64,000 bases of DNA from Pseudisothecium myosuroides (Eukaryota; Streptophyta; Bryopsida; Hypnales; Lembophyllaceae), in the NCBI GenBank assembly GCA_951799445.1, contig OX637288.1:11658501-11722500 (forward strand), written 5' to 3'. This document shows, piece by piece, positions 3,275-56,083 of this stretch (position 1 is the stretch's first letter; each line of letters opens with the position of its first letter). The notes below the pieces were generated by a model that saw only the letters and a program-made list of their open reading frames with translations, searched no databases and was not told where the DNA came from. The translations under genes were made by a program, and so were the position numbers.

Positions 3275-3907
3275 TTAGTGAAACCGTCCACATTTTGGGC
3301 ACGCCTTCCTCTCGTACCCAACGCTCGGCTCCGGTCTCTTGAACCCACTCTCCACCAGCGGCCTCCACAGCTGCAAAATCCTCTCCTTGTTCTGCGCATC
3401 CCGACTCGGATCCTCGATCATCCACAGCTTCCCATCCCTCACCAACTGCACTTCCGCATGGCCAAAGTTTGTCTCCTGATACTCCCCCAGTCCCCCATAA
3501 TCACTCCACCAGAATATATTCCGGTTATATACATACGGGTTATCGTCGAGGAGTGGCACCATATCTGCATGCTTGAGAGTGTAATTGAGCTCTTGTTGGA
3601 GCAAGTTGTAGCATGTAACATGGCAGGCGTACCCGTCGGCTAATTTCTCATCAATGTAGTCTTCGTTGCGGCTACCAATGTAAAAGGAGGCGTAAGGGCT
3701 CTTGTCAGATTGAACGCCGAATTTGCCGTAGTCGTCGTAGGAAGTTAAGGGGATGAGTTCTTCCTTGCTGGAAATGCCGATGAAAGACTCCAGCCAGGTG
3801 TAGTCTGCAGGATTGGGTAGAGGGGGGGGCAATGGTTCGCCCTGGTCGAAGGAGGGGAGGAAAGGAGGACCGCCACATATCGTGCAATACTCATCCCACC
3901 CGCCCAT
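3275..3907 (-). CDS. Uncharacterised 210-residue protein with CxxC pairs at both ends
   Basis: Function unknown; I do not recognise a named family. The chosen start is the ATG at 3907 (MGGWDEYCTICGGPPF), because the upstream in-frame extension to 4159 looks like leader sequence. The protein is 210 residues with no signal peptide or membrane segment. Near the N-terminus CTICGG has a CxxC pair, and the C-terminus ends ACPKCGRFH, a second CxxC; together they could bind one zinc ion (inference). The middle is acidic and aromatic, with WWSDYGGLGEYQ followed by HAEVQLVRDGKLWMIEDP. That uninterrupted, well-composed reading frame argues for a real intronless gene or last exon. It lies about 0.46 kb from the peroxidase pseudogene on the same strand. 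An unseen upstream exon cannot be excluded. Confidence 0.7.
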   Translation of the reverse strand: MGGWDEYCTICGGPPFLPSFDQGEPLPPPLPNPADYTWLESFIGISSKEELIPLTSYDDYGKFGVQSDKSPYASFYIGSRNEDYIDEKLADGYACHVTCYNLLQQELNYTLKHADMVPLLDDNPYVYNRNIFWWSDYGGLGEYQETNFGHAEVQLVRDGKLWMIEDPSRDAQNKERILQLWRPLVESGFKRPEPSVGYERKACPKCGRFH

Positions 3908-6920: not shown

Positions 6921-8414
6921 CGACCTTAAATGTGGTTTTGCAACTTTTCTTGCTATTTTCTGACATTTCAAAGCCATTTTGCAAACACGGTGAGTCAATT
7001 GAATGATGATTTTTTTCACCACTGTGTTTGTATGTTGGTTAATATGAGTCACCCTATAATTTAAAGTTCTTTCATTTGAGTAGGTTTAGAAACCAATTTT
7101 CACCTCCAAATGTGTTGCTAGGAAAATTTTAGTATCCTTTTGAATACTGAAACATTAAAATCTTGCAATCTATGTGGCCAAATGATTCCAAATTTGATTC
7201 ACGTCATCTACAACACATACACTACAAGATTGTACAGTTGAGATCTCTATACCTTAGAGACATTTAGATCTATAACACTTTAAAAGCACTGATGTTTTTG
7301 AACCCAAAAAGGCCTTGGGATTTTGGGGATCAATGCTATCAAGAGGACTTCGCTACATTTTTGGCAGCTGTCATCTACCGCAACAATTCCACAGGCTACC
7401 TATTCTACTGTGTTGCAAAATTGTGGGCATACTTAATCAACTTATCCAATAAAGTTATTGATAGCTTGTGATGTAATTCTTGGGACTCTCTTGGGCAATT
7501 GGGTATTGTTAATATTACTGGTGATATTAGGAGGGATTTATAAAAAGATTCTTGGTCAAATTTTTTTTTTTTTCTTTCAAACGAGAAGTTATAATCAATA
7601 AAAATCAATAAAAATAGTCATGAAAATTGAATTAGTAAAATATTAATATGTAGATGAAAAATGATTTCTATAACCAAAATGGCCGCGTGATAGATTTTGT
7701 TGTCATTATTCTAAAGTTTTTTAAGAATATCTATATAAATCTTGATTTCAAGATATATCCATATGTTGTAGGAGAGATTGGTAGGTCTTGAGCAAGATGG
7801 GTTGGTTTTGGAAGACACTAGTAGATTTTATGTTGTACATCTGTACTTTTGAAGTTAGAATTCAAGGTTCACTTTTTATAACTACATTTACAGTTGTTTG
7901 AATAAGTGTGTGAAAATGATTTCTATTATTGAATTGTCTAAGTTTTTGTTTCAAGTCAAAATTGACTCCAATTTCTCTTTATCTATTTTTGCTCAATTCT
8001 ATAATAATGTACTATAAATTTTCAATTTGATGAAATAGTTGTACGTAAAATCAATGTAACTGAACTCTCATGAATATTGACTATCCATTAGAGTATGTAC
8101 ATTTGATAATATTGGTTATACATTCAAAATATGCTTATGAATATTAATTGCATCACAATATTGAGAATATGTTTCAAGGTATTTATATGTGATTGGAGTA
8201 CTTCTTCATATTGAATGTTTTGAACAAATGTGATAGAATATTTGCAAAGGGCATATGGTATGTGCATTGCCTTTTGTCAATGGAAAATAGTAGAAGGTAG
8301 AAGGTCCTAAAATTGACTAGGCTCTAAAAGCATCTTATAACGTAGAGGTACATTTTGCTTTCTTCATTACACCATCAATGCATCAATTATGTGCATTTCA
8401 AGATGTAGATTATT
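6921..8414. other. AT-rich intergenic DNA, no gene seen
   Basis: Only short chance frames are present. No splice-consistent exon, RNA gene or bounded mobile element was recognised. A lone TTAACCCCTAAACATCC at 8415 looks like a TTAA-element end without a visible partner. Confidence 0.5.
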
Positions 8415-8902
8415 TTAACCCCTAAACATCCAGAGCCTTCTCTAAAATTCAGGATATGAGAAAAATCATTACAAAGAATATTTTGGAAATAATATACAAA
8501 TAGAAGTTGTAGACTTTGAATTGTAGATTCCATCCTTACGGTAAAAATATTCAAGTAGTTTAGCTTCCCTTAGCTAAAATGTGATCAACTTTTGAAGGGA
8601 CACATTTTAGATTTCTTACTTTAAATTGTTTGCGATGGTAGAGGAACATGCTTCAACATAAAATGTGATGAAAAGTGAAAGGTGGAATATGATCCAAAGA
8701 ATTATTCTCAAGTTCATGGAATGTCAATTTTTATACTATCTTTCTCCAATACCTATTCCAAATTGCATTTGAATTCATATTCATCTTTTTATTAATGACA
8801 ATATAGTACAATTGCATATAAACTAATCACTTTGAATTGTCTTCTCATTCAAATCAAAGTTAATGTTCCACCTTGGAGTTCTAACTAAGCCACAAAGGGG
8901 AG

Positions 8903-21199: not shown

Positions 21200-23400
21200 C
21201 AAGCACGGATGCAGAGAGTATTGTAATAAGCTTAGGTTTTTTCCTTTGCTTTTCGGTGTCTCCTTTTTCTCTGCAAGCACGAGGAGCGTCATCAATTGCC
21301 CTACTTTAATCGTAGCGGTGATGATGATGATGATGGTGCGTTCGCTGCTACTTTAGTAGCGCTGATGATCAACTCGATTTCCCCTTACAACAATGGTCCT
21401 GTCAGTGCTCTTGTCTGAATGATCGAGCTTACTTGCTTGCTTGCTTCCCGTTGTAGGTCGTTGTGAAGAGGAGTGCATTAGTTGGGAAGCACAAGCCACA
21501 GTCTTATCTTATCTTTGTTTTTGTTTTTGTTTTTGTTCTTGTGTGGTTGTGAGTTTTTTGTGGATATTGATTGTTTCGTGGTTCGCACACTGTTTGAGAA
21601 TAGAGAGTGTGAGGAGAGAGCCTAAAGAAACAGTGTGAGCGTTGTGTGGAGAGAGACGAGAAGTTTGTGGCGAATCATCGATCGAGCGCTTGGTGGAGAG
21701 CGAGAGCAGGTTTTGTGGCTGAGGTACAAATTTCTTACTTGCGAATCAGAGTGCTGCTGTGGAGGTGGGTGAGGTGTTAGGAGGTATTAGGTTCAATGAT
21801 CGATCAATTAGGTTCCTGTGCTTGTCCTCTTTTTCTTGTGTGAGTAGATGAGATGATAACCCGATTTCGAATCTACAGTTTTTGGTATTGAGCAATACGC
21901 TCGAGTATCTCCTTGGATGTGGGTATGTTATACCTGGTCCGAATTTGTATGCTTGTTAATTTGCCTTTAGCCTCCGATCTCTCGCTTTTGCTTGTGATGA
22001 AATGGATCGTGTGTAGGTTCTGGTTCGTGCGTGTGAGTTTTGTGAATTGGCTATCCAGCAGGGATGCGTTTTATTTGAGTTTATGATTGTTGTGCCGTGT
22101 GTTTTGTGAAATCAGTAGTGCGATGTGGAGATAGGATGAGTGAATTGTTGGAAAATGAGGAGCTGGAGCGTGTGTGTGTAAGGATGTGTGATTGTTGTGT
22201 GTGAGATGATGCTGAATATGAGAAGGATATAGAGGCCATCTTACGAAATTTCGGTGTGTGTGTGTGGTGTTTAGCGCTGTCAGCAAACAGATGAATCAAA
22301 CAGATGCGCTAGGAGTGTATTATTTGTGGAGTTCGGAGAGTTATTTCTATCTGTGGAATTTGTCTTTCTGCGGCTCACAAGTTGCTACAATTCGGTTGTT
22401 GTCACAAAGTACGTTTTTTGCATCGGTCATCAGATACATTTCCGACTGTTTCCTTGTAACGCGTGTGTGTTAAGGGTCTAATACAGAATCAGCCATTCCG
22501 ATTGGCAATAGTCCATTTCAGTGGGTGTACAATCTTCTCTTACAATGACTTTGAATGCTTTAAAGTGATATTGCTTGCTGACTTGTTGGATTAATTTCGG
22601 TCTTGTAGATGTCGATGCGAGAGTAAAGAGCAAGTTTGAGGAATCAGAAGGGTGATCATCAAAGCGAATTGCACAATTTGGGACCTTGACATTGACTTAC
22701 AGAGGAAGCTGCCAGCCTTCACAAGCAATCGGTAAGCACGATTCACAATGTGTTTGGTTTTGTTCAGGTATTGTAGTAGAACCCAAGGAATTATTTGCAT
22801 CTTCTGCCATTTGATAAATTTATAAGTGCATCTCTTTTAGAATCGCCACCCTGGGCGGAGAGTTTTTGTGGCGTTTTCAAATATGGTTCACAATTACAAA
22901 GGAATTATGTATTTGTGCTTGAATTTCAGGAGCTTGGGTGTTCATTTATCTCAGTTTGAAGTAACTGGCCGTGAAATGCAAAACTTCATTTCATGACAGC
23001 GACTATTAGAAGAAGTGATGATTTAGGGTTAACTATAATGTCAAAGAAGGTTACAGATCTGTTAACCAGAAAGCGGATAATTGTGTGTGCAAACAGCAGG
23101 AGATTTTGAAGCGAGTGAAGCTGGAACTTGCATCGTGCCAAATTTAGAACCCACCAGTCATTCAATGGTGTATTTCGGTGGTCAAAAGGCTCATCTATCC
23201 GGAATGCATCCTCTCAGAGCTGCCAACCATGGACTGCATGTTACTCTGAGCTACTCCCGATCTCCTATCTTTGCTTGAGTGCAAATTGGTGATCGTGAGT
23301 GACCTGGTTTAAAATGTTGCTCCAGTCCCCAATTCCCTGGAATTCTTAGTAGTTAGCCGATTCAAAACACAGGATTACATTGCTTTCCCATTCCTTTTAG
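21200..23400 (+). promoter_or_regulatory. Promoter, leader exon(s) and leader intron of the ARF gene
   Basis: A strong acceptor (CCATTCCTTTTAG, AG at 23399-23400) lies seven bases before the ARF start codon, so at least one intron interrupts the 5' leader. The GAGAGA-rich and TG-rich stretch at 21590-22260 looks like leader sequence. A TGTCTC auxin-response-like hexamer occurs at 21257-21262. I cannot place the transcription start or the leader donor; GAG|GTACAA near 21722 is one candidate. Confidence 0.5.
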
Positions 23401-23407
23401 ATTTGGA

Positions 23408-26400
23408 ATGCCGAGCCCAGTTCCGCAGTTAGCCATGAGTGTCAACACAGAGGATGACATTGGAGCTCCAGTGACAAGATGCTCCATCACAGGGACAGAA
23501 CTGGGTGGCCTGGATGCGCAGTTGTGGCACGCCTGCGCGGGGGGTATGGTTCAGCTTCCGCGGGTGGGCTCCAAAGTGGTCTACTTTCCACAAGGCCATG
23601 GTGAACAAGCTGCCTCCTCTCCTGAATTTCCCCTTTCTTTGGGTCCCTTGGGAACTGTCCCCTGCAGGGTGGTTTCAGTGAACTTTCTTGCGGATGGCGA
23701 AACAGACGAAGTCTTTTCTCGCATCTGTCTGCAGCCTGAAGCTGGCTCTCCCTCTCATGATCTCATGGACGACGCTCCGGCTTCGCCACCAGCCAAGCCT
23801 GCGGCATTCTCCAAGACGCTCACTCAAAGTGATGCAAACAATGGTGGCGGGTTCTCAGTCCCTCGCTACTGTGCGGAAACTATTTTCCCTCCCCTTGACT
23901 ATGCCACCGACCCCCCTGTGCAAACTGTTCGTGCGAAAGACGTCCATGGCGAATTGTGGAAGTTTCGTCATATCTATAGGTATGGAGTTTCGTTACTTCA
24001 TCCCACTCTAATTCCTGTTTCTCTGTCTCGGTGAGGTAAGCATACTTTAAATGTGAGCAATTTGGGTTTAGGGTTTAGGGTTATTCGCAATCAAAAGCGT
24101 GTGGGCTTTACGCACCTACTTAGGTCAATTGTGAATGGGCAATAATTTAGCAATAGAAAGGATCACAAAGTAGCGCAGTTTGAGCACAGCAGTTCATTAA
24201 ATGAAACTTCAAAATCACTGGTTTTGATTGTGAAAGCCAGTTTTCCAGAGCCGTCATGAAATGCCTCATTATGTAGTGTTGAGAGTATCTAGAGTCAGCA
24301 TAGCATTTTACTGAGTGCAACCGTCATTGCTCCCAATATGGGCATTTTTACTGCGAATGGTGATTTGAATCTCTTCGCTGTCCATTTTGATTCTCTTCTC
24401 TGTCACAATTAGGGTGGTGTAATTTATAACATGTTGGCTTAGGTTCCATATTTGCTGACGGTTTCCACACCATTGTGTGCAGGGGAACGCCTCGGCGACA
24501 TCTGTTGACAACAGGGTGGAGCACATTTGTCAACCAGAAGAAGTTAGTGGCAGGGGATGCGATTGTGTTTCTTCGCATCGCATCTGGAGACCTTTGTGTG
24601 GGAGTGCGTCGTTCCATGCGGAGTGCCAATTGTGGAGAATCCTCCTGGCACGCTTCACTCTGTGGGGCCTCCGCAATCCGGTCCTCTCCATTCTCGGATT
24701 TTCTAGGCGGTGAGAATGGCTATGGGCTCAGCAGGTCTGAAAATCAAAGCTCACCGGGCTCCAGCTTTGCACGGGACCGCGTCCGAGTGACTGCCAAGTC
24801 TGTTCTCGAAGCTGCTCAACTGGCCAGCGCTGGGAAGCCTTTTGAGGTGGTGTATTACCCTCGGGCTAGCACAGCGGAGTTCTGCGTCGAAGCTGGTCTG
24901 GTGAAAAGCGCTCTCGAGCATTCTTGGTACGCTGGAATGCGGTTCAAGATGGCGTTTGAAACCGAGGATTCCTCCAGGATCAGCTGGTTCATGGGCACCA
25001 TTGCTGCTGTTCAACCCGCAGATCCAGTTCTTTGGCCGAATTCACCCTGGCGGGTCTTGCAGGTTAGAGCTCAATAAGTAACCTGGATTTTCTCATGCCT
25101 TTATTTTGAATATCATATGTTCTTTATTGCCTCTGAACCGAAGGAAGGAGGCCTTGCATTGACAAATAATTCATCCACCGTGAATGTAAGGAAGTTTGAG
25201 TTGGTTGCCGCTCCAATTGTAAGCCAGCGCTACAGGGACAGAGCCTCTCTTAACACAGCTGCTTGTTTTTATTCTCTTCGTGAAATATGCACAAAGCGCA
25301 TAAACGTTTGTCTTTCTGACTAGAAGTTAAGGGTATTATGAATAAGAGTCTCATTGACGAATATTTTGGTGGTGTCATAGAGGTCTGGGCTGCATCGCTA
25401 TCCAAATTTTTGGATGGACAGATGGGCTGCCTAGTTGGTAATTTCAGTGATTACTCATATTAGGAGATTGATGATGGTGCAGGTGGCATGGGACGATCCA
25501 GACTTGCTGCAAGGCGTGAGTCGAGTGAGTCCATGGCAGGTGAAGCTCCTCGCGACATTTCCCTGCCCCCTGCAGCTCCCTCCATTCTCCCTGCCCAAGA
25601 AGAAACTGCGCGCTGCCTTGCCTCAAGAGCTCCAGTTTCAGGCGCCGGGCCTGCTTGGTCTGCCACTGGCAAGCACTAGCCATGGATTGCCCGCCATGCC
25701 CTGGCGGAGCAGTTCAGATCTTGTGGACGACTCCTCTGCTGGCATGCAGGGAGCCAGGCATGATCACTTCAACGGGCTTCCCACAGTGGATTTCCGAAGT
25801 TGTAATTACAAACGTCCTCGAGAGTTCAATCAAGAGAATCAACAACTGTTGCATCCTCAAGCTGAGGATTCCCACATTGCGAATACGAATCTCCACAACT
25901 ATTTTTCTCCGCTGCCCAGACGCCCTGATGTTCCGGTCCCAAGTATCCAGTCTCCGGCCTTCATTTCGGCTTCGGTGAGCGCACAGCTGGAGCCGCCTGT
26001 GAAGAAGACCTCTGCAGCTGCCACCTCCTTTTTCCTGTTTGGTCAGTTCATTGACCCCTCTTGTGCCTCCAAGTCGCAGGAGCGTCCCAATGGCCAGCAG
26101 GTGATGGAAACCAGAAACGCATCCTCGGAGAAGGACAAGGCCAGGGATTCTTCGCGCGGCAATATGCTGAAGTGGTTGCATGCCAACGACGAGGGCGCCA
26201 CTACTAGTCCTCAATTCAAAGTGTCCATGGAGGGTGATGATGTGGGGCGCACGCTAGAACTCTCATTGTTCAACACCTATGATGAGCTTTACAGTCGTCT
26301 GGGTGCAATGTTCAGTGTTTCCCAGTTACAAGACTGCGTGGTATATCGAGACGTGAGGGGATCCATTCGGCGAATTGGAGATGAGCCTTTCAGGTCAGTT

Positions 26401-27110
26401 CATTATGCCCTACTCTCGCTTTCTCTCACTTTGTCCCTCAAGGTAGGGATCTCATTCCCGTAGCTTTTGAGGGGTTTGTCTACTAGAATACACTCTTGTT
26501 TGTGTGTCACACTATATGTGAGAGGGTTCCAGTGCACTCAAATATGAATTATTTGGATACCGTATGAACAAGTCATAGGTTTGTATGAAGGTCTCAATTA
26601 TGAACCTAGAGTACCCTTTAACGCATTTCAAGGGATCTCTTGGAAGGACCTTGTCATGGGAGCTTGAACATCTCATCATAGCAGTTAGACGTAGATACCA
26701 TATGAGTAAGATTTTAGATGTTGGAAGTTTAAGGTATTAGGGCCTCAATCATAAGCGTAGACTACCCGTAAACCATGAGTGTTGCATCTACCTCATATCC
26801 CATGGTTGCATCTTTGGTTGTGATGGAACCTCCTTTGATTGTGATAGCATTTTTGATTGTGATTGAAGTATCTTTATATCTTACAAGTTATATCTTGCAT
26901 TGGAAGCCGCTTGTATTGTAAATGGTGACCTTTCAAGCCACTCTATTGGAATGGTTTCCCTGCTTTAGTTGCCTAATGGGAGCTGATTCATCTCATTAGT
27001 AGACAAGCCTGACTGATCATGAGTCCATTGCACATGGCAGGAGCTTCGTGGAAACTGGGAGGCATCTGACGATCCTGCAGCAGGGATTTGACAGGAAGAC
27101 TGCTGAATAG
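23408..27110 (+). CDS. Class C auxin response factor (ARF10/16/17 type), miR160 target
   Basis: Nuclear transcription factor binding auxin-response elements; class C members are generally repressors. The CDS joins 23408-23979, 24483-25062, 25483-26393 and 27041-27110 (2133 nt, 710 residues), with phases agreeing at all junctions. Residues 40-130 include LDAQLWHACAGGMVQLP, the N-terminal dimerisation flank. The B3 DNA-binding domain spans about 134-235 (TLTQSDANNGGGFSVPRYC, then RHLLTTGWSTFVNQKKLV). The ARF ancillary domain spans about 295-400 (FEVVYYPR, SPWRVLQVAWDDPDLLQ). The middle region holds AGMQGARH, encoded by the miR160 site. A PB1-type end follows (about 636-710: RTLELSLFNTYDELYSRLG, GDEPFRSFVETGRHLTI). 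A second in-frame ATG at 23435 is possible, but the first follows the leader acceptor. The tiny last exon is supported by its PB1 ending and phase. Confidence 0.95.
24063..24082 (+). repeat. Short interstitial telomere-like motif in ARF intron 1
   Basis: GGGTTTAGGGTTTAGGG, about two and a half plant telomere units, sits in the first coding intron. Such telo-box-like motifs are common near plant genes and need not mark a chromosome event. Confidence 0.8.
25740..25760 (+). promoter_or_regulatory. miR160 target site in the ARF coding sequence
   Basis: The 21 bases, with core GCATGCAGGGAGCCAGGC, pair with miR160 along their whole length except for one G:U wobble (knowledge of mature miR160). They encode AGMQGARH, the signature found at this point in class C ARFs, downstream of the ancillary domain. 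Cleavage would be expected near the centre of the site. Confidence 0.93.
26394..27040 (+). other. Third coding intron of the ARF gene (647 bp)
   Basis: The donor GTCAGT follows GATGAGCCTTTCAG. The acceptor CACATGGCAG precedes the final 70-nt exon. The intron is longer than the other coding introns but holds no recognisable element. Confidence 0.85.
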
Positions 27111-29557: not shown

Positions 29558-30185
29558 TTAGTAGAATAAACTTCATTTAAGAATCATCCAACTATGACTA
29601 AGATACTATTGCGTAACAATTAGACCTTTTTATTGCCTAAACCGACAAAAGCATCAAACTGATAAAATAATTGTGGCCCTCCATACACTATTGATTTTCC
29701 AAAATAATGCAATCCTTGAAGTGAAATCTTCACATAACCGGTTGTTGACTTTCCAATGCTAATGTGGTACCGTCCCATTGGCAACCCGTCACCATTGTGA
29801 TTACAAGTTACCACTCATAACCTTCTTTCCTTTCACCTTGCTTCCTACACCCTTGCATCATAAAGATCAAAGGTTGTGATTAAATAATGTACAACCGGTC
29901 ATGTATGATAACTGATGAGATCTAATAAGTTACATAATTGTGTATTTGGCTTCAAGCCAATATTCACACAATTGGCCATTGTTTTGGAAACAAGGCCCCT
30001 TCACTAGTTTGTTACAGCTTCTACAAACCCTAATTGTGCCCAGCGCTCCGTGAACGAAGAGGACGACGATGGAATGCAATGCCCTCAAACCCTAATTTTG
30101 CTTTTCGCGAGGACAGAGATGGAGACACTGTGAAAGAGCTGCCAAAGGGTTGCGCAGCGATGGAGGGGCGTTGTTGAGAGAGACG
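29558..30185. promoter_or_regulatory. Upstream region and leader of the F-box gene
   Basis: Includes two AAACCCTAATT motifs (near 30026 and 30089), telo-box-like elements often seen close to plant transcription starts. The leader probably begins between 30000 and 30100 (inference). No other feature seen. Confidence 0.4.
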
Positions 30186-31898
30186 ATGGCGATGGCGATG
30201 GCGATGGAGGGGAGGCCCCGGAACTCCACCACAAGCTTAACGAGTTTACCTCTTGAGGTTCTGGTTCGCATTCTGTCTCCCTTGCCCCGCCAAGACTGGG
30301 CTCGCGCTTCCCAAGCTTGCACAGTCCTCCGCGCTGCTTGCATCAACTCCCTGGCCACAGTCACCTCTCTCGACCTCAAGAACGCCGGCGCCTCTTTAGA
30401 CGACTCCTGTTTCGCCCTCCTGTGCACCCGCTTGGGCAATCACCGCCTCCACCGCTTGGAACTCGATTGCTGGCATTTGAGCGATGGCGCTTTGGCGAAT
30501 CTCCCCGAGGGTTTGGAGGAGCTCGCGCTCTGCGGGTGTTACCGTCACAGTGATGAGCTTCTTGCGAATGTCGCTCGCAGGACGCACGCGACGCTGTGGC
30601 GGTTTGCGTGGTCGGGGTTTGGAGGAAAGGTGACGTCGTTAGGGTTTCAGGAAATAGCGCGCGCGTGTAAGAATATTACGTCGTTTTTGATTGATAGCGG
30701 CGATGGGACGGATGTGAACGCTGTGGTTTGCGCTGTGGCGAGTAATTGCCCTGCGCTTTCGGAGCTTAGTGCGTATGATCTGACGACGAAGACGTTTCTG
30801 CATATTAGTAGTTGTAAAGTGAGGTTGAAGAGGTTAAGGCATAAGCGGAGAGTCGGGGGAGCCCTTGCTGTGACCGATTTCACTTTGTTTTTGCTGATTA
30901 ATATGTGCCCGTTGCTTGAGGAGCTCCAATTGGTGGACAAGTCGGATGTGGACGATACCAGAAATTTGACGGATATTGGTTTGCTGGCTTTAACCGAGAG
31001 GTCTTCGACGCTGCGGATTTTGAAATTGAAGCTGGCGTCGTCGAGCTCCGCGGAGCATTGCAGCGAGGTAGCCGTCATGGAATTAGCGAGCAGTTGTAAC
31101 CATCTGACGCACGTGGAGCTGAGCTACTTCAAGAGGTTGAGTGATCCGCCGGTGTATGAGCTCATTCAACGGTGCCCGAAGCTGGTGGACTTGACCTTGG
31201 ATGGGACGCCCATTACGGATGCGTCACTGGACTTATTGGCTTCGCACTCGCGATTCCTTCGTTGCATTTCGATCAAGGGGTGTAAGAAGCTGAGCGAAGC
31301 GGGGTTGAAAGCGTTAGGGCAGTGTGGGACTCTAGAGTCGGTGAATGCGGGTCAAGCTTCAGGGGTGACGGATGCTGCATTGACTGCCATTTGTGAAGGC
31401 AATCCTGGCTTGAAATCCTTGGTGTTGAGTCACGGGAACCTTTCGGATGTGTCCCTGCAGTCTGTTGCTATGTGTACACACATGGAGGAGATGGCATTAC
31501 ATGGTTGCTCCCGTATTACAAATGCTGGACTGGGTTTTATTGCAGCGAAGTGCGCATATCTCCGGTTCGTATCGTTCAGCTATTGCGACCATATCTCGGA
31601 TTCAGGAGTGATCTCCTTGGCATCGGGATGCCCTCGTCTTCTCAAGGTGCGCCTGGACGGATGCCGTCTTCTTTCCAACCCTTCAGTACGCGCCCTCTGC
31701 CAGTACTGCCCCAAGCTACGCCATCTGAGTTTGCAGTATTGTGTCAAGTTGTCTGACAATGTGTTCCAGCACTTGCTGTCCGCACCTTCGCTTCGATTTG
31801 TGGACTTGGGCCGGGCGAAGTTGACTCCGGGTGGGATTTCGAGCTATCGGCAGCAGAAACCGGCGGTGGAGTTGTGTATAAATGGAATTCCAGGATAG
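30186..31898 (+). CDS. Intronless F-box/leucine-rich-repeat protein (AMN1-like LRRs)
   Basis: Predicted substrate-recognition subunit of an SCF ubiquitin ligase. The start is the first in-frame ATG (30186), giving 570 residues; the frame stays open to 30150 but without an ATG. The N-terminus is MAMAMAMEG, produced by a GATGGC microsatellite. The F-box lies at about residues 20-62 (LTSLPLEVLVRILSPLP, WARASQACTVLRAAC), which would bind a SKP1-type adaptor. The rest is a cysteine-containing LRR solenoid of roughly 15 or more repeats of the LxxLxLxxCxxITDxGL type, for example MALHGCSRITNAGLGFIA and FSYCDHISDSGVISLA. It ends VELCINGIPG. No transmembrane segment. The GC content is higher than the surrounding DNA. 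The target is unknown; hormone-receptor F-box families such as TIR1 look different at the N-terminus, so I do not assign a symbol. Confidence 0.93.
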   Translation: MAMAMAMEGRPRNSTTSLTSLPLEVLVRILSPLPRQDWARASQACTVLRAACINSLATVTSLDLKNAGASLDDSCFALLCTRLGNHRLHRLELDCWHLSDGALANLPEGLEELALCGCYRHSDELLANVARRTHATLWRFAWSGFGGKVTSLGFQEIARACKNITSFLIDSGDGTDVNAVVCAVASNCPALSELSAYDLTTKTFLHISSCKVRLKRLRHKRRVGGALAVTDFTLFLLINMCPLLEELQLVDKSDVDDTRNLTDIGLLALTERSSTLRILKLKLASSSSAEHCSEVAVMELASSCNHLTHVELSYFKRLSDPPVYELIQRCPKLVDLTLDGTPITDASLDLLASHSRFLRCISIKGCKKLSEAGLKALGQCGTLESVNAGQASGVTDAALTAICEGNPGLKSLVLSHGNLSDVSLQSVAMCTHMEEMALHGCSRITNAGLGFIAAKCAYLRFVSFSYCDHISDSGVISLASGCPRLLKVRLDGCRLLSNPSVRALCQYCPKLRHLSLQYCVKLSDNVFQHLLSAPSLRFVDLGRAKLTPGGISSYRQQKPAVELCINGIPG

Positions 31899-50131: not shown

Positions 50132-53100
50132 CTATTCATCATCATCGTCATCGATGATAATGACCTCCCCTGCAGATGTGTCGAATTCTGAGTCGCTTTC
50201 TTCACGTCGAGTATGTTGACATTGGCATCCCAGATCCACCTCGAGCACACACTCCTGGTCTTCTTGAGGACTATGAGTGACATCTGCGACAACATCCTCG
50301 TTGAATGCCTCCCCTTCCTCCACCAAAATTTCCTCCTCTTTCTCTGCTTCATCAGAGGATGACTCCTCTTTTCGCTTCCTTTTCCTCATCTTACGAATAT
50401 GACGCTCAATTTTCTTGCTCCTCCTCCCTCCGGTGCCGATCTCCACCTTCAGTAGATCGGCCTGTTGCTTGAATGAGTACGGCACTTGAAAGCAGAACAT
50501 CGACAGGTCTTCGAGTTCCAGCACCTTTTCGGTTCTCCTGAGAACCGACTTCAGTCAGTCTTCTCAAGTAGTACCAAAATAACTAATAGAACTAACTGTA
50601 ATATGTTTGAAGTGCAATTAACCCCTAAAGAAAGCACCCAAGGATTCTTAGTTTAAACTGACCAATTCTGAGAAGTAAACTAGCGAATACGACCAAATTT
50701 TATATCACAGGAATTAGTGAAGAACAATGCATGTGTTGATGCGAAAAAGAGAAAGAATTAGACAAATGAAAGTCCCTACTCAAGATTACTACAAAAATGA
50801 GGAGGCCGAATTTGGACTTCTTGGTTCATCAGGGGTTTATAACTAGAATCCAACTTCATTGTATAGAATTCTGGATGGTGTTGACCTGTAAGTTTCGTGC
50901 TCTCCAGTCTTGATTACGAGATAACACCGAGCGGAAAACCCTTCCGCATTAGGACTTACAGACGATAAGGAGCTGATATTAACTGTGCTCTCTATCACGT
51001 ACTGTTTGAAGCCCACAAAGAACAGTTATACGTTATTTGTTCATGCTTTCAAATAACATAACCAAAGATTAATACATTACGGTATCAACATGAAAAGGTA
51101 CAATAGATCAACAGTACAATTTCAGAGCTTCGGAACATACCACAAAAAACGGGCTCCAAATTCTCTGGCAATAGACAGTCCACAGTTCATGTTTCCCTGG
51201 AAAAATGAAGAATTTGTTGCTCTTCCGTATGAAACTGGTAACCCTGTGAGGATGAGAAACACTGATAAGAAATTGTGAATAGAATACTATTCTTTGTCAA
51301 GAGCGACGAGTTGGAGGTGAACTTGCATACCTATGAGAAAAGGCAGTCCAAGATTCTTGGATGTCAACCTCTCTCCGCGCTTCATACAGTCCTGTACCTC
51401 TTAAGGGATTCCATTTATCCTGTTCGTCCCAAGAGTAAGCTGGTGTAATCTCCAAGTACTTCCTGTGCCATGTCGGAGTTAAGTTTGTGCCATTCAAGAA
51501 AGCCTTTAGAACATCAAACAAGGACTGGAGAAGAACAAGTCAATGCCAATGAAATGATAGTCTTTACCCTTACATTTCAACTTGCAGAGGTAATCTCATT
51601 GTAGCTTTTCCGGAGGGTGCCATTTTCTGGTCAGAAAATCGATCACCAGTTCTGTTGACGATTAACGCATACCAGTTCGGTCGCTCTTGCTCGTTGTACA
51701 GTGCCCATACCTTCACAACAACAACAACAAATTAGATTTGTCTGTGACAACGTTTGTTGAAATAGAACCTCTGTGACTCTGTTCATGATTGTCCACTTAA
51801 CATCAAAGTTTTGATCTTAATTTTGACCACATGTACAGAAGATTCAACGATTAGTTTCTGATTAAGCTATAATTAGGATATGATTAGGGTCACTCTGATT
51901 AGACTGTAATCATCAGATCATCCTCCAGCACAACGAGATTAGGGTTGCAGAGGTCTCAGACATCAACAACTTACATCGCCAACTTCCATAACCGAACAAT
52001 CCTTCTCCGAAGTGGACCTGGAGCTATGAACTGGTTGACCCAGATCCCGCACCGATCCTTTCAGAAGTGGACTTAACAGGTACGCAATAACTTGTACCTG
52101 CACCACACAATTGCAATGGAAATGACTTAAGGAAGTTTCATGTCCTGATCCACCACAGATAGTAAGAAACACCTAAAAGACCAAGAGATGCATGGTCTTA
52201 CAAATGACCAATTTGATTGATCATGTTGTGATCAGATAAAGACACATTTTTATATCACCAGAGTCAGTGAAGAACATTGCATCTCGTGGGTAAAAACAAA
52301 CAAAAGATATTCCCCACATAACCTACTCAAATCTGCAAAAAACGAAAGCGCGAGGTCTCTTGGACCGCAGTCCTTACAAATGACTTACAGACGACTTACA
52401 CTGAACGTGTTTCCCAACAATAGCCACCTCACGGCGGCCCTCAATGGCTCTTTCCGGGCATCCTTTTCGCCACCAGCACCCTTCCGAATTCGTCCTTTTT
52501 TTGCAGCTTTTGAGCTCTTGGCCCTCCTATGCAAACGAGGAAAAAATGGCACTATAAGTAAGCTGTTCCGATGAGCTAATATTTGCACAAAAAAGACATC
52601 AAAAAGACGATGCCAAGTCTCGTTCTTCCAGCATTAGCATTACAAAGAGCCATTGAATTCCACTACCACGGCTTGTTCTCCTAGCATTAGCATTACCAAA
52701 TGCTATTGATTTCCACTACCGAGCTTCACAAACTGCCAGTTGGAACTGTAGTAATGCTTTGCTAGCTTACGTGATATTCTGAGACACGAGAGTACTAGTC
52801 AGGGAATTGGCTCCTTCATGCACCAGCACACTGGTGTGGTGAGCTGGGAATCCCAAGAGCAATTCCAGCTCAAGGGGACTAAGATAGCGCAGGCGGTGGG
52901 TTCCGTTGTTTTCCATCACTAGCTCCAACTGGCAGCAGTTGTTCTCGGTGGAGTTAGTCGATAAGATGACCTAAAATTCAGCAGACACGGAAATGCAATT
53001 AATTAGAGAGACTCATGTACTGTCTTCTGTGCTTGCTTACTCAATGTGTGTGCAGTAGTAGTTATTGAAGCCTTCCTGAACGCTTATGGCAGTGTGGTGG

Positions 53101-56083
53101 GGCAAGAATCCCAGCATGCATTCCACTTCCGCCTGCACGAGCTTGCGGAACCCCTCGGATTGGTTCACATAGGCTTTCTCCAAATTGTAGCTGTTGCTGC
53201 TCTCGGAGGTGTTGCCGAGAATGACCTAAAGGGGGTGGGTAAAGGGCTGATTAGGGCTTATTATTCCGTGGTTTGTTAGCCCCGAAACGACCAAGGATTC
53301 ATGGGTTTAGAATTCCTAAGTTAAATCAGTCGATCGCGTTGTGGGAAACAGGGGCCAGATTTGAATTATCACCAGAATTAGTGAAGAACATTGCATGTGT
53401 AGGTCAAAAAGTCAATTAAAATTGGACAAAAGTCTTCATATGATCTACGCAAAACTGCTCATAAATATGAGACCAGATTTGGGCCAATTGGGGTTGGGGT
53501 TTTCTGGTATTGTCCTCCGAGATGGGGCCCTGGGGGTTGTCTACACAGACTACAAGGAAAATAGTAATACTCAAGGAAGGAAGTCCAATTGAACAGGAGG
53601 ACGCTGTCGAAGTACCACTGAAGAAATTAGGGTTTAGGGTTTAAGGCTTACCCCTGTTTTCTCCTCAAGCGCAATGGCATTCTGAAGGCAGCTTTGCACC
53701 AAAGTTGAAGGGTGGTCTCGCACGCTAGGCAACTTCATTGGATGCGGAATGTTGGTCCAGTACAACCTCCTTCGCCGGGTGGGTGTGAGCTCAATGGAGT
53801 CCAACTCAAGTGGCCGCACCCCAGTATACTTGGAAATCTCCAGCCGGTCAATCCATGTCATCGACGCCACATTCTCAACTAGGAACCTGTAAGAGATTTC
53901 AATTCAGTCACGCTCTTATAGAGATTAGAATACTGCATCGACCCTGTAGCAAATCGAATTGTAATTGTACAGCAAATCTTTGATTCACAAACGTAATAGA
54001 AATCCCACATTGGCACATCTTGTTCACCAATTGATTAGACTCCTCCTCAATCCCCAGTCCATAAATTTCAGAACCAGATTCTAACCACTGCTATTCAACA
54101 TGGCTCTCAAGACAAAATCCTCATATTTTTTGCATCATCTTCTTCATGAATCCCAAAACAGTATCCTTTGTGGTCTGCATGCAGCTTTAAATTAGGGTTA
54201 CCTACCATTTGGGTTGGAAAACTTTCATGGCTTCCAGAAGATCGAAAAACAGTCGACTGCGTTGTCCATGAAGCCTGCATCATCGACACAGCCACTATCA
54301 ACTCCATAGCACAGATTCTAATGCACTATCGTTGCGAGGATGGACAGTAGAGTGTAGACCTAAAACATACCCTTCTCGTCTGCCCATGCAACTGAGATCT
54401 TGACAAGGAAACCCGCCCACGAGCAGATCCACATCTTCCCCAATAAACTTCCTCTCGAGTTTCCTCACATCCCCGAGGTGCTGCACCTCTGGAAACCTTG
54501 TCTTCACAACTTCCACTGCTGGCGCACTCTGCCATCCATTGTTAACACAGCGACGCAGCAGCCAGTTTACAATCAGTCTTCTTCTTCGTCACTGTGACCG
54601 AACTCTAAACCTTAATCAAGATTATGAACCATTTCAGAACAACCAAAGTGTTTTCGATACCCAAACTAGTTGCTATGGAGTCGATTCAAGATTGAGGATC
54701 ACTGACCACCTCGGAGCTGTAACCACGAAAGGGGATTCCCAGGCGTGTGAGAGCTGCCCAGACGCCACCAATTCCATCAAATAGGCTTAGTACCACCAGT
54801 TTGTTCCCATTCCACTTGCCTGCCTCCTCCTTCATCCTTCTCACCCAATCTCCATCTCCGCTTGCAAGAGGCTCCTGGGAAGTACTACTCTGACATGCTC
54901 CCACATTATCATTGTTAGAATAGTCCCATATTCATTTACGTAGCAGATTTCAAGAGATAGACCGACCTTTATCTAGACTCGTATCTAAATCTTTCATAGG
55001 TTTGAGAGCAATGTCGCAATTCTGACGCTTTAAAACACGCCATTACGAGTATGAGCATTATGGTAAAATTTCAAAAGATAGACCGACCCTTGTCCAGACT
55101 CCCGTCTAAATCTTAACTCTAAATCTTTCATGGGTTTGAGAGCAATGTCAAAACCGTGGTTCCATTTTAACCAGTATGAGAATTGGTTTATGCGATTTTC
55201 GCCGAGAGAATGTTCATGAATCTTCCTTTGATTCAAAATTGGTTTCAGTTCTGTACCTTTGGTGTCTGGTTGCCATCTTCCAAGGCTGCTACATTGGATT
55301 TACCAGCAGTGGACAGCCGAGGCGAGAATCGTGGCTCCTGTTGCACTGCTTCCTTGCATTTCTGCTGCAGTTGCAGTGGCGAAGGGATGCTGTCATTCAT
55401 TTGCATATTCATTTTGCATGGCAAATTTTCAAGAGATTCAAACCTTCTCCAGACTCCCATCTAAAACCTCAAATCGAAATCCTTCATAGGTTTGAGAGGG
55501 TTGTCACAATCGTGGCTTCAATTTTACCAATATGAGCACATTGGTTGTGCGAAATTCAACAACAGAACATTGATAGATCTTCCATTGATTCAGAATTGGT
55601 TACAGTGTGGTACCTTCAATGTCTGCTTGCCATCTTCCAAGGCCACTACTACTATTTGCATATTCATTTACATGGCAAAAAATTTCAAGAGATAGACCGA
55701 TCCTTCTCTAGACTCCCATCCAAAACCTCAAAAAGTATTTCTTTCAAAATTTGAGAGCAATGTCACAACCATGGTGCCATTTTAACCAATCTGAGCATTA
55801 GTTGTGCGATTTTCGACTACTGAACATTGACAGAACTTCCATTGATTCAGATTTGGTTACAGTGTATTACCTTAAGTGTCTGGTTGCCATCTTCCAAAGC
55901 AACTACAGTGGATTTGCCAGCAGTGGAGAGCCGAGGCAAGAATCGTGGCTCCTGTTGCACTGGATTCTTGCATTTCTGCTGGAGTTGCAGTGGCGAAGGG
56001 ATGCTGTCGCTGCCAGGCTCCTGGTCGATCAAAATCTGGGCTTCTCTCTCAAGCTCCCGAATCTTGAGCAACAGTCTCTCCAT
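50132..56083 (-). CDS. DNMT3-like cytosine-5 DNA methyltransferase with alternative catalytic exons
   Basis: Predicted nuclear enzyme transferring methyl groups from S-adenosylmethionine to cytosine C5. Exons traced: 56083-55871, 54889-54707, 54528-54371, 54274-54206, 53886-53652, then either 53225-53041 or 52970-52771, then 52526-52400, 52097-51975, 51710-51582, 51524-51331 and 50537-50132. Either choice keeps frame: 673 or 678 residues. Motifs in canonical order: I (VLSLFDGIGG), IV (GGFPCQDLS), VI (FLVENVASM), VIII (RRRRLYWTNIP), IX (LGFLPHHT or LGFPAHHT), X (LLLGNTFSVQVIAYLLSPLL). This order excludes the permuted DRM class. No BAH or chromodomain separates I and IV, unlike MET1 or CMT. A short coiled coil (MERLLLKIRELEREAQ) precedes the catalytic domain. 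After it, VWALYNEQERPNWYALI and ESWTAFSHR faintly recall DUF3444, followed by basic RKMRKRKRK and acidic VIIIDDDDDE, a possible SUMO-interacting motif. The donor at 51582 (GTTGAA) is the weakest junction. Confidence 0.85.
50618..50840. mobile_element. Degraded TTAA element inside the last methyltransferase intron
   Basis: The left end is TTAACCCCTAAAGAAAGC. Near the right, GAGGCCGAATTTGG followed by TCAGGGGTTTATAA resembles the right end of the element at 62701-63549 with a decayed TTAA. It lies wholly within the intron between 51331 and 50537. Confidence 0.5.
52771..52970 (-). other. Alternative motif IX exon, version B (200 nt)
   Basis: Acceptor TGAATTTTAG, then coding VILSTNSTENNCCQLEL, RYLSPLELELLLGFPAHHT and SVLVHEGANSL, ending in a GTAAGC donor. 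Enters in phase 0 and leaves in phase 2. This version is closer to the usual methyltransferase motif IX (ExExLLGFPxxHT). Confidence 0.85.
53041..53225 (-). other. Alternative motif IX exon, version A (185 nt)
   Basis: Acceptor CCCCCTTTAG, then coding VILGNTSESSNSYNLEKAY, RKLVQAEVECMLGFLPHHT and AISVQEGFNNYYC, ending in a GTAAGC donor identical to that of version B. Same entry and exit phases (0 and 2). Joining A to B would read into a stop after about 15 codons, so the two cannot both be retained. Confidence 0.85.
54940..56000. repeat. Tandem array containing copies of the first methyltransferase exon
   Basis: AAGAGATAGACCGAYCC-type segments recur near 54951, 55074, 55430 and 55687. Exon-like segments (GTCTGGTTGCCATCTTCCAA on the + strand) recur near 55264, 55623 and 55879. 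The exon-like copy at 55600-55690 is truncated; the other two keep an open frame. The unit is roughly 300-370 bp with deletions. Confidence 0.8.
55257..55412 (-). other. Possible alternative first exon of the methyltransferase
   Basis: An ATG at 55412 opens MNMQMNDSIPSPLQLQQKC and runs 52 codons to a GTACAG donor at 55256, in phase 0, compatible with the exon at 54889. It repeats the C-terminal half of the 56083 exon but lacks its coiled-coil part. It may be an alternative start or an unused duplicate. Confidence 0.55.

Follow-up and report, generated by a model that had tools for sequence, protein, structure and literature searches.

In a 64,000-nt stretch of the genome of the moss Pseudisothecium myosuroides (contig OX637288.1, positions 11,658,501 to 11,722,500; hereafter the window), we identified a DNMT3 gene on the minus strand (56083-50132) that contains two adjacent homologous exons, A (53041-53225) and B (52771-52970), which the reading frame makes alternatives. 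Each encodes a version of the segment that runs from the target-recognition domain (TRD) loop through motif IX; this loop is among the DNMT3 parts that read the target site. By the explanation we favour, the exon for this segment was duplicated in tandem, exon A, which is the upstream copy, diverged but remained open, in phase and bounded by splice sites, and the gene would be spliced with A or B but not productively with both, the inclusion of A being the presumptive step. We consider it slightly better than an even bet that this is a lineage-specific, predicted mutually exclusive pair that swaps the TRD loop of a DNMT3 enzyme.

Exon A is 185 nt long (61 full codons) and exon B 200 nt (66 full codons), and the two share phases (0 in, 2 out), GTAAGC donors and TTTAG acceptors followed by GTCAT. 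Their peptides, VILGNTSESS...LGFLPHHT in A and VILSTNSTENN...LGFPAHHT in B, share 38% of about 60 aligned residues. The original prediction had the coordinates, VIL starts, GF..HHT motifs (GFLPHHT and GFPAHHT), phases and donors right, and its claim of homology is borne out by a local alignment score of 88, far above that of 2,000 shuffles (23.4 +/- 4.5, best 50, none reaching 88). The two strands of the window contain 924 stop-free AG..GT segments whose length and phase would fit; among them, exon A attained 0.231 of the self-score of exon B, and the top score outside the A/B stretch (915 segments) was 0.021. Judged by published criteria for mutually exclusive exons (length difference within 20 amino acids, relative score at least 15%; PMC3228551), the pair agrees in length, homology, splice-site type, phase and the lack of in-frame stops. 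Past the two donors, 11 of 15 bases also agree at +3 to +17, ranking first among 78 donor pairs of the gene, and similarity upstream of the two acceptors is ordinary (rank 34 of 78).

The case rests most firmly on the reading frame. Using the modelled sites, a transcript with both exons stops after 359 codons, inside exon B, and one that skips both stops after 347 codons. Because both combinations shift the frame into early stops, only transcripts with one of the two exons are predicted to be productive, and the product is open with either, at 723 or 728 residues; the lengths of 673 and 678 given previously are superseded by a revised model that adds a first exon at 56083-55871. Overall, the sequence supports a pair of exons in a plant methyltransferase between which the frame forces a choice.

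The gene belongs, by similarity, to plant DNMT3 and is a predicted de novo methyltransferase. Its product matched the C5 methyltransferase domain PF00145 (E 2.6e-26) and DNMT3B (E 2.6e-27), which identifies it as DNMT3-type, and the B-form matched DUF3444 (PF11926, E 2e-8) above the cut-off, in a domain scan that covered the B-form but only a portion of the A-form. Among the 120 homologues listed of 492 found, the closest was Ceratodon purpureus M758_UG166500 (63%), followed by proteins of Sphagnum, Physcomitrium, Marchantia (MpDNMT3a), fern and lycophyte origin, and each of the best 29 of the 120 carried both domains. The gene clustered with moss and other land-plant DNMT3 in a 19-sequence tree, with the Ceratodon UG protein nearest. 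The same layout, an N-terminal DNMT3-type methyltransferase and a C-terminal DUF3444, is described for PpDNMT3a/b and MpDNMT3a/b in excerpts of PMC6453930, which also state that PpDNMT3b performs CHH and de novo CG methylation.

Mapped on DNMT3B, the A/B segment starts in the TRD loop of DNMT3A/B and extends through motif IX. The exons thus encode the DNA-reading loop itself together with motif IX, rather than motif IX next to the target-recognition region, as first proposed. Exon A lacks the nearly invariant Asn corresponding to DNMT3B N779, with GNTS where B has STNS, and it retains R, E, E, G and T, all nearly or fully invariant. A comparison of residue retention with column entropy (p = 0.0009) was discarded, being confounded by changes in B itself. 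As a separate observation, a Sphagnum DNMT3 (P0007, 41 member sequences) likewise lacks the conserved TRD Asn (VVMGFGS). A structure model of a relative was built from a 53-sequence alignment.

Exon B is the ancestral type, as judged by comparison, because 31 of 32 aligned homologues and all three paralogues are closer to it. The homologues (P0001-P0029, P0033, P0035 and P0036 of those listed) included one, P0007, that was equidistant, with 18/55 to each exon. The paralogues are three further DNMT3 genes that exon matches located in this genome (L023, L024 and L025), whose B-type exons are 54, 40 and 38% identical to B versus 35, 23 and 23% to A; no second A/B-like exon was seen in them among the top four segments per scan, and in L025 these were all matches to its own exon. 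Over the compared core, B has one extra codon and A has the same length as the paralogues. The 388-Mb genome contains a single copy of exon A, whose other matches were exon B (39%) and then the B-type exon of L023 (34%). With three matches in all, A itself included, an origin as a dispersed repeat was not supported. Derivation from a paralogue was not supported either, exon B being its next best match, but retains some probability, the A+L023 grouping being just 1.0 log unit worse. The trees did not date the duplication relative to the L023 and Ceratodon splits, because the topologies A+B, B+L023 and A+L023 spread over at most 1 log unit and the A+B grouping had a bootstrap of 59 in the protein tree.

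Exon A has kept its length and splice sites, contains no stop in 61 codons and has a GC content at third codon positions (GC3) of 0.754 versus an intron GC of 0.394. We simulated neutral change at about 0.58 changes per site, our own estimate from the A-B identities. The chance of no stop was then 0.125 under intron composition or 0.20 under unbiased mutation, and simulations started from exon B reached the GC3 of A in 0 of 20,000 runs or in 0.09%, respectively. From an artificial starting GC3 of 0.90, the joint chance was 0.0008 or 0.019 at 0.58 changes per site and 0.07 or 0.22 at 0.3. We also fitted a codon model to 52 codons of exons A and B and their three paralogue counterparts; because stop codons lie outside this model, the open frame is further evidence. 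With free branch lengths, the nonsynonymous-to-synonymous rate ratio (omega) of A was 0.16, as in the background, and a value of 1 was rejected (p = 0.019). A wholly neutral relic is unlikely on this evidence, because of the open frame and the GC3.

As to how one exon might exclude the other, steric exclusion is a plausible aid, because the A-B intron (52971-53040) is 70 nt long and its donor has a candidate branch point 38 nt downstream. This intron is the shortest in the gene (the remainder span 87-996 nt, with 244 nt for the intron 3' of exon B, 52527-52770), and its sole YTNAY matches, CTAAT and TTAAT, leave 38 or 42 nt between the donor and the candidate branch-point A, and 32 or 28 nt between that A and the acceptor, so that direct joining of A to B would be sterically poor. 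Excerpts of two reports put the steric limit at about 50 nt and describe the alpha-tropomyosin and OGDH pairs as enforced in this way (PMC7969005, PMC6692369). Competing RNA structures, including the docking sequences that had been suggested for the introns, were not distinct from dinucleotide shuffles in this one sequence (fold and duplex energies at z between +0.6 and -1.6; 24 of 300 shuffles reached the strongest value). Within the intron after B, we noted by eye a repeat of about 50 nt (52710-52620) on which a tandem-repeat program was silent; the B donor flank is able to pair with this repeated GTAATGCTAATGCT element, though not beyond chance.

Several observations weigh against an exon pair that is both exclusive and functional. 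The steric threshold of about 50 nt does not come from plants, and short introns are spliced in plants. Acceptor scores are low (A -1.4, the lowest of 13; B -0.3), although exons 2 and 3 score low too and the donors of A and B are middling (4.9 and 5.5), on a small leave-one-out matrix built on the other exons of the same gene. The claim that exactly one exon must be chosen stands at the modelled sites but does not extend to other GT/AG sites, through which we counted, without scoring, 36 stop-free in-frame joins across the A/B stretch; among the 25 listed, some simply start with the GT that opens A, and 3 keep the real donor of A with acceptors inside B. Double inclusion in frame by such routes is possible on paper and is not favoured. 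Turning to exon A itself, it departs from three nearly invariant residues (N to T, 94%; V to A, 97%; P to L, 91%), the P being the motif IX Pro. It is not found in the 32 aligned homologues, the three paralogues or elsewhere in the genome, and a protein search with the exon A region returned 12 candidates, none at E <= 10. In the protein tree its branch is 1.46 substitutions per site, compared with 0.07 for B, and the free-length codon fit requires 9.2 for A and 2.2 for B, a fourfold difference that is unexpected for two exons of one gene. With equal ages imposed, omega was 0.50 for A against 0.16 for B (equality rejected, p = 0.001), and omega of 1 for A was not rejected at 5% (p = 0.08). Finally, had the ancestor had a GC3 of about 0.90, unbiased mutation would yield the GC3 of A with a probability of 0.54 at 0.3 changes per site, 0.18 at 0.45 and 0.07 at 0.58.

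Many of these points are what one would expect if exon A were a decaying duplicate, rarely or never spliced in, whose frame is intact by chance or through recent loss of constraint. The very long A branch, the loss of N, V and P, the unrejected omega of 1 under equal ages and the absence of A from the homologues and paralogues examined all fit decay, as do the A-B identities at codon positions 1 and 2 (0.54 and 0.65), which would lie near the neutral expectation. Absence extended to a further, weakly informative search of 16 fragment proteins, which we read as mostly moss genomic DNA: none carried exon A, 12 carried exon 5 and 4 later exons, and among the 12, P0130 continued into a B-type exon and the rest into intron or to their end. 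Scans of viral and prokaryotic contigs returned no relatives. A decaying exon sits less easily with an open frame, a core length as in the paralogues, a GC3 well above intron GC and an intact GT donor and AG acceptor, and we regard decay as the most serious rival, if an unlikely one. By these estimates exon A evolves much faster than B, and rapid change within a frame that is intact and rich in GC3 is more in keeping with a new role than with decay, without proving it. The earlier view that both copies are under selection thus holds clearly for B and in part for A, for which the open frame and GC3 disfavour neutrality and the fast evolution and the omega test do not help.

If exon A is indeed used in a mutually exclusive pair, the B-form would be a canonical DNMT3, and the A-form would keep the catalytic core (motifs I, IV, VIII and X lie in shared exons) with a different DNA-reading loop that lacks the conserved Asn. 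The A-form would then read the target site differently or serve as a weak, regulatory subunit. In the more specific version, B reads through its Asn and A, with GNTS for STNS, has another CpG/CHH or flank preference, so that splicing would produce two methylation patterns by tissue or stage; we offer this tentatively, as a proposal well short of even chances. Somewhat less probable still is a sub-case that overlaps with the favoured explanation, namely that the A-form is made but is a catalytically dead accessory subunit, by analogy with human DNMT3B3. DNMT3B3, which lacks the VIII-IX stretch, is described in an excerpt as inactive yet able to modulate DNMT3A/3B (PMC3716610), and exon A alters the same stretch with loss of the Asn and the motif IX Pro; here, however, the stretch is replaced rather than deleted, and the nearly or fully invariant R, E, E, G and T are kept. 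Least probable, and in our view quite doubtful, is a poison exon, whereby joining of A to B, with a stop that leaves seven exon junctions downstream, would trigger degradation and tune the amount of DNMT3 without an isoform: such splicing is common in plants, but A alone keeps the frame, the 70-nt intron disfavours the A-B join and a poison exon requires none of the open frame, coding GC3 or DNMT3-like residues that A has.

Tandem exon duplication with exclusive splicing is of an ordinary kind; its location here, in the loop with which a plant de novo methyltransferase reads DNA, is unusual. Splicing of human DNMT3B, including DNMT3B3, likewise alters the motif VIII-IX stretch (PMC3716610, in excerpt), but DNMT3B3 loses that stretch and is inactive, whereas the moss gene would swap in a homologous exon of nearly the same length. 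In alpha-tropomyosin and OGDH 4a/4b, as excerpted, the alternative exons also lie side by side, and the intron between them has its branch point no more than about 50 nt from the donor; the OGDH pair also arose by exon duplication (PMC7969005, PMC6692369); splicing was measured in those animal genes and is predicted in the plant gene. Compared as proteins, the 32 aligned homologues, which include Physcomitrium and Marchantia DNMT3, had no second version of TRD and motif IX. According to excerpts of a 2014 survey, PubMed and ArabiTag describe no mutually exclusive spliced genes in Arabidopsis, 99 candidate exons were predicted there with no internal one annotated as exclusive, and TAIR holds 14 internal mutually exclusive exons of very different length (PMC3923563). 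Titles and abstract beginnings listed in an open-access library contained no such exon pair in a plant DNMT3.

The gene model comprises 12 constant exons and the A/B pair, all on the minus strand with GT-AG introns. Exon 1 (55871-56083; 71 codons, ATG at 56083, donor GTAATA) is an open frame whose N-terminus resembles that of homologues, for example MERLLTKIRDLEKEA in P0008. It is followed by exon 2 (54707-54874) with motif I (SLFDGIGG), exon 3 (54371-54528) with motif IV (GGFPCQDLS), exon 4 (54206-54274) and exon 5 (53652-53886), which contains the ENV motif and motif VIII (TRRRRLYWTNIP), has a GTAAGC donor and matches homologues strongly. After the A/B pair, motif X starts in exon 7 (52400-52526; RWLLLGNTFS) and ends in exon 8 (51975-52097), where the DUF3444 match begins; this match continues through exons 9 (51574-51710) and 10 (51331-51462) and ends in exon 11 (51141-51243). 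Exons 12 (50886-51001) and 13 (50132-50537; an open frame with an acidic tail and the stop) match paralogue L023.

Several repeats and fragments of the gene were also observed. The end of exon 1 and the next intron are tandemly repeated (55065-56008, minus strand) as a 257-bp unit in two copies about 80% alike, with a third copy about 82% identical to the first; in one repeat piece (55397-55257), a possible alternative first exon, the frame is open (85% identical across 47 residues) and a GT donor is retained. On the contig of the gene, at a distance of about 2 Mb, there is a further exon-1-like fragment (63% across 43 residues; L026, G000:C2:9718000-9727000, at 3752-3880), and exon 3 has an isolated open copy (87% identical across 53 residues) in L009 (G000:C10:5796000-5805999, at 8282-8440), where the 20 kb examined contained nothing else that matched the gene. 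ATGCAATGTTCTTCACT and its variants form a short related element in three introns (53355-53430, 52248-52296 and 50693-50766). The closest relative, P0001 from Ceratodon, has a UG locus tag, which we read as the female sex chromosome, and the window gene is on the 50-Mb contig C2, so a difference in sex linkage is possible. Neighbours in the window include a likely auxin response factor gene (23357-26463, plus strand; AUX/IAA match above cut-off, B3 and ARF below) and a single-frame F-box LRR gene (30096-31898, plus strand).

If the favoured explanation is true, the gene would amount to a domain-swap experiment done by nature, in which the rest of a de novo methyltransferase stays the same, and it would be a clear plant example of mutually exclusive exons in an internal position. 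One could then test directly how the sequence of the TRD loop relates to methylation context, and this moss may be able to switch how a DNMT3 enzyme reads DNA.
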